NCBI RefSeq assembly: GCF_900112895.1
Contig: NZ_FONL01000002.1
Span: forward strand, 124,001 to 188,000
Direction of reading: 5' to 3'
Source of the DNA: Succiniclasticum ruminis DSM 9236
Lineage (GTDB): Bacteria > Bacillota > Negativicutes > Acidaminococcales > Acidaminococcaceae
Length of the DNA: 64,000 bases
Shown: positions 24,973 through 31,436 of the stretch, piece by piece
Position numbering within the stretch: the first letter of the stretch is position 1
Layout of the letters: each line of letters begins with the position of its first letter
Notes under the pieces: model-generated
The model's database searches: none
What the model was told of the DNA's origin: nothing
The model's input: the letters and a program-made list of their open reading frames with translations, nothing else
Made by a program: the position numbers and the translations under genes

Positions 24973-26583
24973 ATGAAACGGAACTCTTACCAATTATCAA
25001 ATTCACAAAAACAGGAAAACACAGTAAAATCAAAAATCGGATTCAGTGAACCCAAACTTTACGGAAATCATCCGGATACGATTAATAATCTGCAGGATCG
25101 GGTCAATAAGATTATTTCCTGCAGCAAGAACGCCATTTCGTTGTCAAATGCCGGAATGCAGGATAATGCACTGCGATTACAACGAATGGTTTTGGTACGA
25201 CAAAAAGAGATTTTCGACGAGTATCATCCAAATACAATCATCGCAATGAATAATCTGGCAGTTATATTGTTAAAATCAGGGCAGTACGAAAAGGCTTTGG
25301 ACTGGCAGCAAAGAGTTTTTAAAAACAGAAGAATTATTCTGGGAGAGAATCATCCGAATACAATTAATGCAAAGAAAAAAATGGCAAACACGATTGTAAG
25401 GATGAATCAGAAAGCTATCGAATTATCAAATGCCGAAATGTTTAAAGATGCATTGAAATTACAACAGTCGGTTTATGATAAACAAATTGAACTCTTCGAT
25501 GAGAATCATCCAAATACGATCATCGCAATGAGTAACCTAGCAGAAATTTTGTTGAAATTAAGACAATATGAAAAGGCCTTAGCGTTGCAGCAAAAGGTTT
25601 TTAACAACAGAAAAGCTGTTCTGGGAGAAAAACATCCTCGTACAGTTTTATCTGAAAAAAACATAAAGAATACTTTTGCAACAATGAACTTAGAGGTTAC
25701 CAAGCTGTCAAATGAGGCAAAGTACGATGAAGCATTAATGTTACAACTTACAATTTTAAATAACGCAAAAAAAATATTTGGGGAAGAACATCCTGAAACG
25801 ATTTTTGCCAAGTATAACGAAATACTTTTATTAACTCAATTGAAAAAACGTTATAACGAAGCGTTAAAATTATACGAAAGCGACTTAATAAAAGCAGATC
25901 CTGCCATAAAATTCCCGCCTTGCCCATTGGTTGATTCAATTAATATTTTTGACTTTTTTTCCGAATGTAAGCAATCGGATATTATAACGGCCTCACCTCG
26001 GAAGAGCTTTTTTGTAGACGCAGGACCCGGGACAGGAAAAACTTATACTTTAATCCAAAAGTTAAATTATATGGTTACCCAGGAAGGCGTAGAAGCCGAC
26101 GGCATACTTGTTTTATGTTTTACTAATGCGGCGGTTGACGAAATAAGATTTCGTCTTAAGCAGTTTGTTGCCAACGGTGCCGACAGAAGCCTTGTTCTTG
26201 TTGATGTAAGAACCTTTCATTCATTTGCATGGTGGCTGATCAATGAGGCAAATTCCGAATTGATTGATTCGGGCTGGGATCCTGTTAATATGGCAAGTTT
26301 GTATTTTGAAAAGTCTTTGGTATACGCCAAAAAGATATTCGAGTCATTTGGTCAAGAAGTAGTAGCAAGATGGGAATATTTCATTGTTGATGAAATTCAG
26401 GACTTGACAAATACCCTGGGTAATTTTGTATTGGAAATTATTAATGCGTGTCTGTCAGTCGGTTGCGGTGTGTCGGTTTTAGGAGATGCATGCCAGGCAA
26501 TATACGATTATCAGGAGTCACAGTCAAATTCGCTAAAATCAGGCGAATTTTATAAAACATTGTTCCCATCCCATTACAGGTGA
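24973..26583 (+). CDS. TPR domain fused to truncated UvrD/SF1 helicase
   Basis: 536 residues. Residues 40-310 carry kinesin-light-chain-type TPR repeats (DEYHPNTIIAMNNLAVILLKSGQYEKALDWQQRVF and similar, about four). Residues 340-530 match SF1A helicase motifs: AGPGTGKT (motif I), LCFTNAAVDEIRFR, the Ia/Ib region FHSFAWW, and VDEIQDLT (motif II), then LGDACQAIYDYQ (motif III). The frame ends right after SHYR, before motifs IV-VI, so the helicase lacks its second RecA domain. Truncated and likely inactive as a helicase, or a fragment of a defence-type TPR-helicase. Confidence 0.8.
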   Translation: MKRNSYQLSNSQKQENTVKSKIGFSEPKLYGNHPDTINNLQDRVNKIISCSKNAISLSNAGMQDNALRLQRMVLVRQKEIFDEYHPNTIIAMNNLAVILLKSGQYEKALDWQQRVFKNRRIILGENHPNTINAKKKMANTIVRMNQKAIELSNAEMFKDALKLQQSVYDKQIELFDENHPNTIIAMSNLAEILLKLRQYEKALALQQKVFNNRKAVLGEKHPRTVLSEKNIKNTFATMNLEVTKLSNEAKYDEALMLQLTILNNAKKIFGEEHPETIFAKYNEILLLTQLKKRYNEALKLYESDLIKADPAIKFPPCPLVDSINIFDFFSECKQSDIITASPRKSFFVDAGPGTGKTYTLIQKLNYMVTQEGVEADGILVLCFTNAAVDEIRFRLKQFVANGADRSLVLVDVRTFHSFAWWLINEANSELIDSGWDPVNMASLYFEKSLVYAKKIFESFGQEVVARWEYFIVDEIQDLTNTLGNFVLEIINACLSVGCGVSVLGDACQAIYDYQESQSNSLKSGEFYKTLFPSHYR

Positions 26584-26611
26584 GAGAAAGATTGATCACA
26601 TTGAAATTAAT

Positions 26612-27319
26612 TTGGATTCCATTGCATTATTTGCACGCATTTCTCATTATGGTGATGAACAGGAAGAGCAGGTTAAAGGATTTATTATACATGTAGTGCT
26701 GCATGAATTGGCTCATTTGGACCAGGAGGTTGATTTTGGGCAGGACAATAAGACAAAAAACGAGTATCAAAAACGAATGGAAAACGCTAATGAGACATAT
26801 ACCTATAACTGGATTATGAAGCATATGAACGAGCTGGTCAGAAGGTTTGGGCCGTTTCGTCTGGAATTAGCAGCAAATTCCGGCACCTACCGCTATGACA
26901 ATCGATATGTCTACAAACGTATTAATTCCGTAGCTGATGTGCTGAAATCATTACTTTATTTTTTAAGCAATGTGGATATAGAAAAACTGATTGATAAATT
27001 TAATTCTGTATTTATTATGATGATACTGAAACTCAGAAACGGTGCACATTTCAGATGTTTAATACTGGGTAAAAATGATTCACCGGTAAAAATTCGTAAG
27101 ATACGTGATCTTCTCACATTCTTGGATCAGAATATAATACAGAAAAACCGTGTGTTTACGTCAAAATCTTGGTTGGAATATGATGAAAGTATCGTTCTTA
27201 AGTCAGATAATAAGCCTGGTTCCAGAACCTTTCATATCCCATTTCTTGTAATAACTCTGGAAGAAAGTGATGAAGAAGCAAAAACATTTACTATCGAATA
27301 CAAAAAAGAAAAGGCCTGA
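26612..27319 (+). CDS. Fragment with HExxH metallopeptidase-like motif
   Basis: 235 residues from a weak TTG; the frame is open 5' of that, overlapping the end of the helicase frame, so it probably lost its native start. Near residue 30 is VVLHELAHLDQ, an HExxH zinc-peptidase signature, in a helix. The rest (AANSGTYRYDN..., DVLKSLLYFLSNVD..., HFRCLILGKNDSPVK) has no recognised domain. It looks like the C-terminal part of an unrelated protein joined to the helicase by deletion. Zinc peptidase activity is unproven. Confidence 0.5.
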   Translation: MDSIALFARISHYGDEQEEQVKGFIIHVVLHELAHLDQEVDFGQDNKTKNEYQKRMENANETYTYNWIMKHMNELVRRFGPFRLELAANSGTYRYDNRYVYKRINSVADVLKSLLYFLSNVDIEKLIDKFNSVFIMMILKLRNGAHFRCLILGKNDSPVKIRKIRDLLTFLDQNIIQKNRVFTSKSWLEYDESIVLKSDNKPGSRTFHIPFLVITLEESDEEAKTFTIEYKKEKA

Positions 27320-27383
27320 TTATACTAATGTCATTAAATTAAGCTAAATTGCTGTTTGTTTTAGTGACGGGGATAACAGAGTA

Positions 27384-27412
27384 TTGTTAAAGCAGGTACT
27401 TATTGGTATAAT
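27384..27412 (+). promoter_or_regulatory. Promoter of candidate RNA at 27419
   Basis: TTGTTA (27384-27389), 17 bases, TATAAT (27407-27412). Confidence 0.7.
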
Positions 27413-27418
27413 ATTTAT

Positions 27419-27552
27419 GAGCCTTGATGGTGTGCCGTTAATAGCGGTTGTGAACACACCGTCAGGGTTTCATTTAAAGATAGGACTTGTGCGTGCGTAC
27501 GCCCCCGGTTTTCCGGTGCGCGTGCGGTACATGGCAGGTTCTATTTTTATTT
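27419..27552 (+). ncRNA. Candidate small structured RNA with terminator
   Basis: About 134 nt between a strong promoter and a U-rich end. 5' hairpin: CCTTGATGGTGTG pairs with CACACCGTCAGGG around a GTTAATAGCG loop region. 3' hairpin: ATAGGACTTG (27480) pairs with CAGGTTCTAT (27535), enclosing GTACGC/GCGTGC, then TTTTTATTT. Looks like an independent sRNA ending in a rho-independent terminator. No known family recognised. Confidence 0.6.
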
Positions 27553-27578
27553 GCGTTTCACTAGTATTCTGTTATAAT
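27551..27578 (+). promoter_or_regulatory. Promoter of candidate RNA at 27585
   Basis: TTGCGT (27551), 16 bases, TATAAT (27573-27578); starts within the terminator tail of the preceding RNA. Confidence 0.6.
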
Positions 27579-27584
27579 GAATGA

Positions 27585-27707
27585 GGAATATTTCTTTAGC
27601 AAGCACGATCGCAGAACCAGTTCCACCTTTGATACTGGTATCTGTCGAAAGCAGACCGCAGGTGGTAACGGTCGATGGGCGGGCGGAGCCATCGTAAAGA
27701 ATATTCC
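27585..27707 (+). ncRNA. Candidate multibranched structured RNA
   Basis: The ends pair: GGAATATTTCTTTA (27585) with TAAAGAATATTCC (27695). Inside: GATCG/CGGTC; GTTCCACCT with AGGTGGTAAC enclosing two hairpins (GATAC/GTATC and TCTGT/GCAGA); and the hairpin CGATGG/CCATCG. About 123 nt, promoter adjacent, no coding frame. Folding is clear by eye; family not identified. There is no reverse transcriptase, so a retron is not supported. Confidence 0.6.
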
Positions 27708-27717
27708 AAATAATGCT

Positions 27718-28146
27718 TTAGCATATACGTTCTTTCATCAGAACCAGCAGATTATCACGCGTCAATTTTGTATCAGCCACTAAAAAACCGGCAACTTGTT
27801 TATGTGTGCAGAGCGTATAAGCATAGTCTTCTGCATCAGTACCTTTTTCTTTCAGTTCTGCAATATGGACCAGACCATGGCTGAATCTGCCCCATAAAGA
27901 GCCTTCTGGCACTTCATAAACGTATAAAACCGATAATTCTTCAGATGGTTCTACAGTAGTACTGCGCATATATTCGATATACTTTATGATTCTGTCCCTG
28001 AACATATTCCAAATTTCTTTTCCAGTAACAGTTTCTTTCTTTTTCATTACTTCTATCATTTCATCACGAATGAATGGTATGGCAAGATACGCATTCAGCA
28101 ATTCTTCCATATCAAATTCCCGTAAACATTCCTGTACTGTTTTCAC
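27718..28146 (-). CDS. Hypothetical protein (possibly DUF6557-like)
   Basis: 142 residues. Starts MKTVQECLREFDMEELLNAYL; middle VLYVYEVPEGSLWGRFSHGLVHIAELK and a C-terminal YAYTLCTHKQVAGFLVADTKLTRDN. I associate this arrangement with a Firmicute family (DUF6557) but only from memory. Last gene of a minus-strand operon with two small membrane proteins and a YccA-type protein; its start overlaps the upstream gene's stop by 4 bp. Confidence 0.55.
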   Translation of the reverse strand: MKTVQECLREFDMEELLNAYLAIPFIRDEMIEVMKKKETVTGKEIWNMFRDRIIKYIEYMRSTTVEPSEELSVLYVYEVPEGSLWGRFSHGLVHIAELKEKGTDAEDYAYTLCTHKQVAGFLVADTKLTRDNLLVLMKERIC

Positions 28147-28475
28147 AATATCCCTTCTTCCGTAAGTTTTTCTTTCAATATTTTCTGGTCTTTCTCTGTA
28201 AGAATATCCTTTTTTAGCAGTTCATCCATATATTTTCCTGTAAGGGAGACGATTTCCGGATCTTCTTCGATAATAAGGCTTTGGAGCAGGTATGCTGCAA
28301 AGAAGAACACAAAGAAACCGATCGTACCAAATATGACTGTCCATGCTGTACTGTGCTCCATTTCAGGCATGATCCGGCAGAAGATCAGACTCCCGATCAG
28401 CGTAGCCCAAAGCACAAACTGAAGCTTTTTCAAAAATACGATATATGCCATTTCCTTCAGATTTTCAGAAGTCAT
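28143..28475 (-). CDS. Small membrane protein
   Basis: 110 residues with two transmembrane segments (around residues 17-36 and 44-68, the latter IFGTIGFFVFFFAAYLLQSLII), followed by an acidic cytoplasmic helix. No family recognised. Overlaps both neighbours by 4-11 bp, so translationally coupled in the 29543-27718 operon. Confidence 0.6.
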   Translation of the reverse strand: MTSENLKEMAYIVFLKKLQFVLWATLIGSLIFCRIMPEMEHSTAWTVIFGTIGFFVFFFAAYLLQSLIIEEDPEIVSLTGKYMDELLKKDILTEKDQKILKEKLTEEGIL

Positions 28476-28776
28476 GACATAACCATCCTTTTTGTATTGT
28501 TCTACAGCAGGCCTTTTTTTTCATATATACCATACCTGTTGCAGAAAAGAGCAGGCATGCCATGAAAAGAACCATATTGCATTCGAACATTTCAGGATTG
28601 GTGCTCACTTTCCATGGGAACGTACCCATGTAAATTATAACAGATATGGTCATAAGCAAAGCCATAACCGCAGTCGCAAACGCATATAAATTGTAACCGA
28701 TTTTAAACGGGAGATTATCTATATCCCCACGAAATAAAATCAGATATATTGCCATCACTGTTGCAAATTTTTCCAT
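28465..28776 (-). CDS. Small membrane protein, unknown
   Basis: 103 residues, start chosen at the ATG at 28776 (AAGGAGG upstream); longer in-frame starts lie in the overlapping gene. Three hydrophobic helices predicted (LYAFATAVMALLMTISVIIYMG; CNMVLFMACLLFSATGMVYM). No family recognised; part of the coupled membrane operon. Confidence 0.55.
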   Translation of the reverse strand: MEKFATVMAIYLILFRGDIDNLPFKIGYNLYAFATAVMALLMTISVIIYMGTFPWKVSTNPEMFECNMVLFMACLLFSATGMVYMKKKACCRTIQKGWLCHDF

Positions 28777-30527: not shown

Positions 30528-31436
30528 TTAATGTTGATTTTTAGGGGTTTTATTCCAGAAATCCGAGATAAAGGCAAGATCATTAGCGGCATCAGGATCG
30601 CCAGCCTCAGCAGCTTTGCGAAGCAGCCTCATTCCTTCCATCTCATCGAATTCCACACCGTTGCCGGACATGTAACATCTGCCCAGCCGTCCAATAGCGA
30701 ACGGCAAGCCTTGTGCGGCAGCTTCACGGTACAGTTCCGCTGCTTTTGTGAAATCCTGTTCCACAACATCGCCATTAAAATAAAAATCACCCAGCAAAGA
30801 CTTGGCATGCGGTTCTCCCTGTTCTGCAGCTTTTGAGAGCCATTGTAACGCTTTATCTTTATTTTCAACCGTTCCCGTACCTGTAAGGTAACATCTGCCC
30901 AGTTCACATTGGGCAAATGCGTCTCCCCGTTCGGCAGCAGTTTCAAACAGTTCAAAAGCCTTTTTCTCGTTTTTTTCAACGCCTATGCCATCCAGATGAC
31001 AGTCGCCTAAAATACCCATGGCAAAGGTATCGTCGTTATCGGCGGCCTTCTGAATCCATTTTGCCGCTTCTTTTGCATCAGCTTTTACGCCAAAGCCATG
31101 ATAATAGCACAGACCCAGACAAACCACACACCCAGGTTCTCCCTGTTCTGCAGCTTTACGCATCCATTCGGCGGCTTTTACGAGATCTTTTTTTGCGCCC
31201 CTGCCAAAAAAGTAAGCATGACTTAAATCACGCATGGACTCAAGTTTTCCCTGTTCAGCAGATTTCTGAAGCCATTTTAATGCTTCTTTTTCGTCAATCT
31301 CAACGCCGTTGCCATAATGGTAACACCTGGCCAGCGACCACTGGGCGTTTTCGTCACCGGCTTCTGCCTTTCTTAAAAGTTCATCAATTTCTTCCTTGCC
31401 CAGCAGTCTTTCCATTCTTTCAATCCTGTTATTCAC
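30528..31436 (-). CDS. Sel1-repeat protein (tandem array, gene 2)
   Basis: 302 residues from a GTG with a GGGAGG site. Eight Sel1-like repeats run along almost the whole protein (e.g. ENAQWSLARCYHYGNGVEID, EPHAKSLLGDFYFNGDVVEQD), ending in a short polar tail. No signal peptide. Such long alpha-solenoids serve as protein-protein scaffolds. Largest member of the array; a weak TATATT -10 lies just upstream. Confidence 0.88.
   Translation of the reverse strand: MNNRIERMERLLGKEEIDELLRKAEAGDENAQWSLARCYHYGNGVEIDEKEALKWLQKSAEQGKLESMRDLSHAYFFGRGAKKDLVKAAEWMRKAAEQGEPGCVVCLGLCYYHGFGVKADAKEAAKWIQKAADNDDTFAMGILGDCHLDGIGVEKNEKKAFELFETAAERGDAFAQCELGRCYLTGTGTVENKDKALQWLSKAAEQGEPHAKSLLGDFYFNGDVVEQDFTKAAELYREAAAQGLPFAIGRLGRCYMSGNGVEFDEMEGMRLLRKAAEAGDPDAANDLAFISDFWNKTPKNQH

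Follow-up and report, generated by a model that had tools for sequence, protein, structure and literature searches.

Promoters, hairpins and a truncated unit in the window

The window, 64,000 nt of Succiniclasticum ruminis DSM 9236 (G000:C23:124001-188000, G000 being the window's own genome), was scanned with Pfam for ten ORFs near the locus, which gave a TPR and UvrD N-terminal ORF, a Bax-inhibitor-like ORF, Sel1-repeat proteins and an LRAT-like ORF. At 24973-26583, TPR repeats are fused to an early-ending N-terminal part of a UvrD helicase, and the Sel1-repeat protein at 30531-31436 is one of several Sel1-like ORFs. The original prediction described two tandem promoter-driven small RNAs here, termed RNA 1 and RNA 2 below; the features of the locus are listed in Table 1.

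Table 1. Features of the locus in window coordinates
Feature	Position	Strand	Source or remark
Promoter 1: TTGTTA, 17 nt, TATAAT, TG before -10	27384..27412	+	promoter scan
Hairpin A of RNA 1, within dispersed module A (27345-27475)	27419..27470	+	
Hairpin T1 and T-rich tract, likely 3' end of RNA 1	27475..27550	+	not called by terminator scan
Promoter 2, extended -10, TGTTATAAT, contains TATAAT	27570..27578	+	read in sequence
Unit D (D1)	27592..27707	+	
P1 of D1	27592-27598/27695-27701	+	
P2 of D1	27612-27620/27635-27644	+	
P3 of D1	27654-27658/27669-27673	+	
P4 of D1	27674-27678/27689-27693	+	
Kissing loop 5' half CCACCU, in loop of P2	27623..27628	+	
Kissing loop 3' half AGGUGG, in loop of P3	27660..27665	+	
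D2 start	27708..27732	+	long-RNA homology ends after 27732

Both promoters had been credited with TATAAT. Both hexamers are present and promoter 1 is complete and a good sigma-70 match in the promoter scan, whereas promoter 2 has no -35 element reaching the scan threshold. The strong terminator assigned to the end of RNA 1 was not recovered: the terminator scan called 0 sites in 26500-28500, and the structure concerned is a large hairpin that contains internal loops and precedes a T-rich tract. RNA 1 folds to -69 kcal/mol against a shuffle mean of -41.4 kcal/mol (z -7.7), and RNA 2 (27585-27707) also folds better than its shuffles (z -3.6). Because the antisense strand of RNA 2 folds equally well (z -4.2), its strand is not given by energy alone. 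The interior of T1 (CGTGCGKAC...CGGTACAYGGCAGGT) is conserved, and this hairpin ends RNAs in the window, at 1035-1112 of L006/L057 and at 862-928 of L055. The exact T1 pattern occurs in three genome contigs and two viral contigs; one of the genome contigs, from an actinobacterium, is probably a chance hit.

Parts of the locus are dispersed. The stretch 27345-27475 recurs in G000 at C28 (95%) and partly at C33 (86%) without the downstream part, and 27482-27732 recurs at C26 of the same genome (94%) without hairpin A, so RNA 1 consists of two separable modules. Module A is also present in G010 and in the metagenomic phage contig L044; the element A pattern gave 0 hits in a first search of viral contigs and L044 only in a later one. 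In L044, A, T1 and the second RNA follow one another as they do in the window, and D1 of the window is identical to L044 over 116 nt. The IMG/VR contig L043 is the same DNA as C26. In L043 and L044 the second RNA continues to a terminator-like hairpin, about 540 nt in total, with two differences between them in about 490 columns from P1 to the terminator hairpin. A third, more diverged copy of this long RNA (89% to L044 over 359 nt) lies in L055 (DLYJ01000007.1), a 3.7-kb contig filed under a Treponema MAG, which may be misbinned; a related T1 hairpin ends the long RNA there. The layout of the long RNA is D1-D2-X-D3, with one promoter and one terminator, X being a separate motif described below.

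Beyond 27732 the window is no longer homologous to the long RNA and therefore lacks the rest of D2, together with X, D3 and the terminator. RNA 2 is unfinished, since the RNA of its homologues runs on and the window homology stops without a T-run. Taken together, the long copies elsewhere and the break in the window identify RNA 2 as what is left here of a longer RNA of sporadic occurrence, namely its 5' unit. Two finished stand-alone small RNAs in tandem, as originally proposed, are rejected: the two hairpin modules of RNA 1 are found separately elsewhere, and RNA 2 is truncated. The long RNA was found in one of 14 genomes of the genus, G000 itself, and any part of the window stretch was matched in 5 of 100 relatives; searches of named phages with the long RNA and of plasmids with the window stretch gave no match. 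The folding energy of the full long RNA does not stand out (z -1.9, with 5 of 100 shuffles folding as well).

Several repeats and cassettes were noted near related elements. In L055, the palindrome GTCGCCATGATGGCGAC lies on the minus strand at about 1448 and 816, just before the long-RNA promoter and again past the terminator, a placement resembling that of a phage repressor operator. A dispersed repeat of about 22-45 nt (ATACGATACGGCGAAAATGGAGTATCGTAT-like, with inverted ends) lies beside several hairpin cassettes in G000 and its genus, at sites including L003 1130-1160, L046 7108-7152 and L047 1559-1580. About 5-7 kb before the window start, positions 1300-2800 of L047 (G000:C23:116000-120000) hold dense promoter-hairpin-terminator-like cassettes, with eight promoter-like sites versus 2.3 expected and no excess of terminator-like sites (2 versus 1.8); they include duplicated 68-nt and 48-nt units (85% and 90%) and a D unit at 2337-2453 (E 8.5e-11).

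Structure, covariation and distribution of D and X

Unit D folds into a junction: P1 encloses the hairpins P2, P3 and P4, and the P2 loop pairs with the P3 loop. Compensatory changes in L055 indicated P3 and the P2-P3 loop pairing (three pairs). R1, a covariance model of D1, matched D2 just downstream in the long RNA (E 6e-14), where the kissing loop reads CGCUACU x AGUAGCG in place of CCACCU x AGGUGG; further matches were to other families and to a third unit of L055. For D3 the score is good in L055 and weak in C26 (E 1.8e-4). R1 matched in 8 of 380 genomes of the class at E up to 0.1, two of them judged chance, and a model built from D units (R2) placed D in 13 of the 380 at E up to 0.01. 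E-values of the covariance models built here are rough, and the searches over 40 genomes used filters that lose weak matches.

When 13 D units, 11 of them distinct, were aligned, 94.2% of cells were paired. Both sides had changed in 29 of 32 pairs, a level reached by 0 of 500 shuffles and compared with 4 to 9 in slid controls. A lack of conserved pairing in homologues had been set beforehand as refuting; the pairing is conserved. The kissing helix, which lies outside the search model, changed on both sides in five of six pairs; it is really 5 bp long, since the sixth pair is mostly unpaired (7/10). A measure of further pair types did no better for D than shuffles (130/500). Identical alignment rows were counted once, alignments A6, A7, A8 and A11 are fitted to the model structures, and L077 and L078 (E 0.009 and 0.07, judged chance) and L049 (same DNA as L043) were dropped before A6.

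This structure retains only part of what had been drawn for RNA 2. From the 13-bp pairing of its ends, GGAA/UUCC and UUCUUUA/UAAAGAA are kept but the middle is not: the 5' strand reads GGAATATT in the window, GGAACACT in L043, GGAATTGT in L044 and GGAAACAT in L055, and the 3' strand is constant. A multibranched interior is backed by covariation, in the form of P1 around P2, P3 and P4, although the branching differs from that of the single-sequence minimum-energy fold.

Motif X, located between D2 and D3 of the long RNA and absent from the window copy, comprises two hairpins, a closing stem and two conserved loops, and also occurs alone elsewhere. Across eight sequences, 23 of its 26 pairs change on both sides; L063, L064 and L066-L069, which have no two-loop motif, were dropped before alignment A4. 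With model R3, 26 of the 380 class genomes have X when E up to 0.01 is accepted (22 of them below 1e-9), each in one to three copies. The exact X pattern has 0 matches in viral contigs, and other loci have X with different loop letters. At 1397-1861 of L072 (G336:C2), X is followed directly by D, and these by a hairpin and a tRNA gene, all intergenic.

At the gathering score, Rfam 15 had nothing in the window, nor any family over the RNA in L002-L010, the full RNAs of L044 and L055, L059-L069 and L072-L078, where the sole match was the tRNA beside D in L072. On 27300-27800, one chance-level match was returned. At E up to 10, L044 gave two chance matches to miRNA families and L055 none, and the ROOL and GOLLD models did not match the full RNAs of either. 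A known Rfam family or riboswitch is ruled out for the scanned stretches. The idea of a stable functional RNA outside known families thus stands with regard to the family, and no description of D- or X-like RNAs was found in the accessible parts of the open-licence literature.

Placement relative to long ORFs and phage nuclease domains

Where an ORF of 250 or more codons covers an element (eight X and eight D), the element lies on the opposite strand in all 16 cases, and the longest same-strand frame over any D or X element has 238 codons. Counting distinct elements under opposite ORFs of at least 180 aa, we found a -10-like element upstream in 15 of 21 X, against 0.10 in control windows, and in 9 of 10 D, against 0.12. 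T-runs come after 15 of 21 X (control 0.09) and after 8 of 10 D (control 0.18). Among the remaining elements, array-internal units included, the -10-like element was seen in 11/17 X and 8/13 D and the T-run in 8/17 X and 3/13 D. On the RNA strand, G-U exceeds A-C in both X (58:15 and 20:1) and D (34:10). Judged by these sequence features, the embedded copies look like small RNA genes with the closing helix as terminator stem and selection acting on the RNA strand. A purely protein-coding origin of the conservation was ruled out: in our reading the peptides of L043, L044 and L055 are in different frames, and the G-U excess on the RNA strand also contradicts it. Embedded copies are complementary to the mRNA of the host ORF (the toxin), arrays and intergenic copies are not embedded, and L043, L044, L055, L059, L072 and L073 carry D or X without any long ORF.

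The nuclease domain associated with X is PBECR1 (PF18809), a predicted phage RNase. Of ten scanned ORFs that host or adjoin X, six (L095, L097, L100, L101, L108 and L111) exceed the curated whole-protein cut-off of 27.6 bits for PBECR1; L103 scored 21.5, below that cut-off, and L106, L112 and L121, the X and D hosts that lack the domain, had no Pfam match to it. In the converse test, the Pfam model alone was searched against 300 of the 380 genomes and found PBECR1 in nine. At eight of these nine loci, X lies on the other strand, -5 to +22 nt from the PBECR1 3' edge. The ninth, in G053, matched profile positions 1-85, has no X and in our reading sits in a portal protein. Eight of the 26 genomes with X are among these nine, G307 also has PBECR1, and the rest, which make up most of the X genomes, were undrawn or without a match.

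Among PBECR1 loci from IMG/VR, X is at the edge in 8 of 10, and the other two (L143/L144) are one sequence. These loci and those of Acinetobacter were found with X-linked protein queries, and only the Pfam search is free of that bias. The loci also overlap: L137 equals G307, L141 equals G311, L140 equals L142, L143 equals L144, and G064 is 97.8% like G084. In Acinetobacter phage vB_AbaM_ABMM1 (L133), X occurs at 1810-1903 on the minus strand (E 9e-14), 10 nt past the PBECR1 match and with a T-run, an example of X next to PBECR1 in a phage that infects a distant host. Five A. baumannii records in the plasmid collection have the Acinetobacter version of PBECR1, and that of L095 was not found in plasmids. 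At two Helicobacter phage loci with weak PBECR1 similarity, R3 gave no match. Comparative sequence analysis demonstrates the D and X families and the positional link of X to PBECR1.

R2 had 0 matches on PBECR1 loci. The D-hosting ORFs share a stretch of about 120 aa, which lies directly before D in 6 of 11 copies and is present in part in L083. It had no Pfam match above cut-off; one of six members matched PBECR3 weakly (E 0.0057), and hhalign against PBECR1 gave a weak 17.8%. A conserved His and a terminal Thr fit the BECR pattern given in PMC5512222. This stretch is a candidate BECR-like domain, and the link of D to it is weaker than that of X to PBECR1. It was found in none of the named phages, and its best match in its own genome reached only E 0.03. 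The Pfam search did not find PBECR1 in G000, the array-carrying genome, and tandem D units occur only in arrays with no toxin seen nearby.

Proposed role, rival readings and known systems

Position ties two RNA families, both backed by covariation and both lacking an Rfam match, to a phage nuclease domain, and for one of them the tie is tight. We infer, with a probability of about 0.5, that D and X are RNA antitoxins or immunity RNAs of phage BECR nucleases and that RNA 2 of the window is a truncated orphan remnant. Each RNA would be the immunity element of a cognate nuclease, made from its own promoter in phage-carrying cells, and would block the nuclease by binding it, in the manner of type III antitoxins. 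Arrays lacking a nuclease, such as that at C26 in G000, would be orphan immunity genes retained as a defence against nucleases from other phages. The window copy, which has kept a promoter and one unit and is missing its terminator, is for that reason in our view decaying; it would be the remnant of such an array, and a defined RNA is probably no longer made from it.

PBECR proteins have been proposed to be packaged and injected (PMC5512222). A wider and more tentative version of the antitoxin reading is that phage polyvalent toxins may have RNA rather than protein immunity: genes of structured RNAs would be nested on the antisense strand at the 3' edge of the injected nuclease domains, with one RNA family per nuclease family. 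Prophages and bacteria would then hoard orphan copies as 'RNA immunity islands', of which the window remnant and the array of cassettes some 5-7 kb ahead of the window could be examples. If D and X are antitoxins, they would explain how cells survive phage-packaged RNases, each family would offer a matched pair of RNA and nuclease, and unexplained bacterial hairpin arrays would become readable immunity records.

The opposite-strand position of all 16 elements under ORFs of at least 250 codons would also be expected if X and D silenced the toxin in cis, pairing in a type I-like manner with its mRNA just 3' of the nuclease-coding part and using their stem-loops as first contacts. We consider this unlikely, because loops and architecture are conserved between loci, which pairing in cis does not need, the G-U excess is confined to the RNA strand, and there are copies without a long ORF. 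That both strands of RNA 2 fold about equally well and that modules are shuffled between loci would suit palindromes acting in DNA, as recombination or replication sites, but the one-strand G-U excess, the oriented promoter-like elements and T-runs, and the constant orientation relative to long ORFs make this reading highly improbable.

Shuffled modules dispersed within one genome, the sporadic distribution and the in-frame copies inside long ORFs bring to mind a selfish palindromic element of the Rickettsia type, inserting into ORFs and intergenic DNA alike. Such mobility is improbable given that X sits at one defined place, the PBECR1 3' edge, at eight of nine loci, has few copies per genome and is accompanied, like D, by its own promoter-like elements and T-runs. 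A large 'ornate' phage RNA of the ROOL or GOLLD kind, serving packaging or assembly independently of the nucleases, would account for the length of about 540 nt, the several domains, the loop-loop contacts and the occurrence on phage contigs; single units beside nuclease domains and the lack of an Rfam match to such families render it distinctly improbable. The antitoxin reading is compared below with the systems nearest to it.

The type III antitoxin RNAs ToxI, antiQ, CptI and TenpI resemble D and X: they are structured RNAs with pairing loops, are in some cases organised as tandem units, and neighbour a predicted endoRNase. According to PMC4147584, type III antitoxins bind the toxin, and the antitoxin RNA precedes the toxin gene within a shared operon, the two being separated by a terminator. 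X, in contrast, is antisense at the nuclease 3' edge, the toxin is of PBECR1 type rather than ToxN type, and units measure about 116 nt here versus 36 nt. With type I antisense antitoxins, D and X share the strand opposite the toxin gene and an own promoter, and complementarity to the toxin mRNA is found in the embedded copies only; they differ in their conserved, covarying architecture and loops, in having copies without a toxin gene and in that the toxin is a predicted RNase domain within a large protein.

ROOL, GOLLD and OLE are likewise large multi-domain RNAs with loop-loop contacts, and phage context is a further likeness, whereas the long RNA has no Rfam match, is built of repeated D units and X, and is linked to nuclease domains. 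Rickettsia palindromic elements are structured and lie in frame inside ORFs, as D and X do, and insert in many unrelated genes; here X has the same place at the edge of the nuclease domain in eight of nine PBECR1 loci, but some X and D hosts (L106, L112 and L121) lack that domain. A fixed place at a nuclease domain edge, a promoter-like element with a T-run and a small number of copies set the present RNAs apart from them. For the phage polymorphic (MuF) toxins, immunity is attributed to small ORFs downstream (PMC5576092). Those genes and the RNAs described here have in common that a protective determinant adjoins a phage-delivered toxin domain, and they differ in that the candidate determinant here is an RNA on the other strand.
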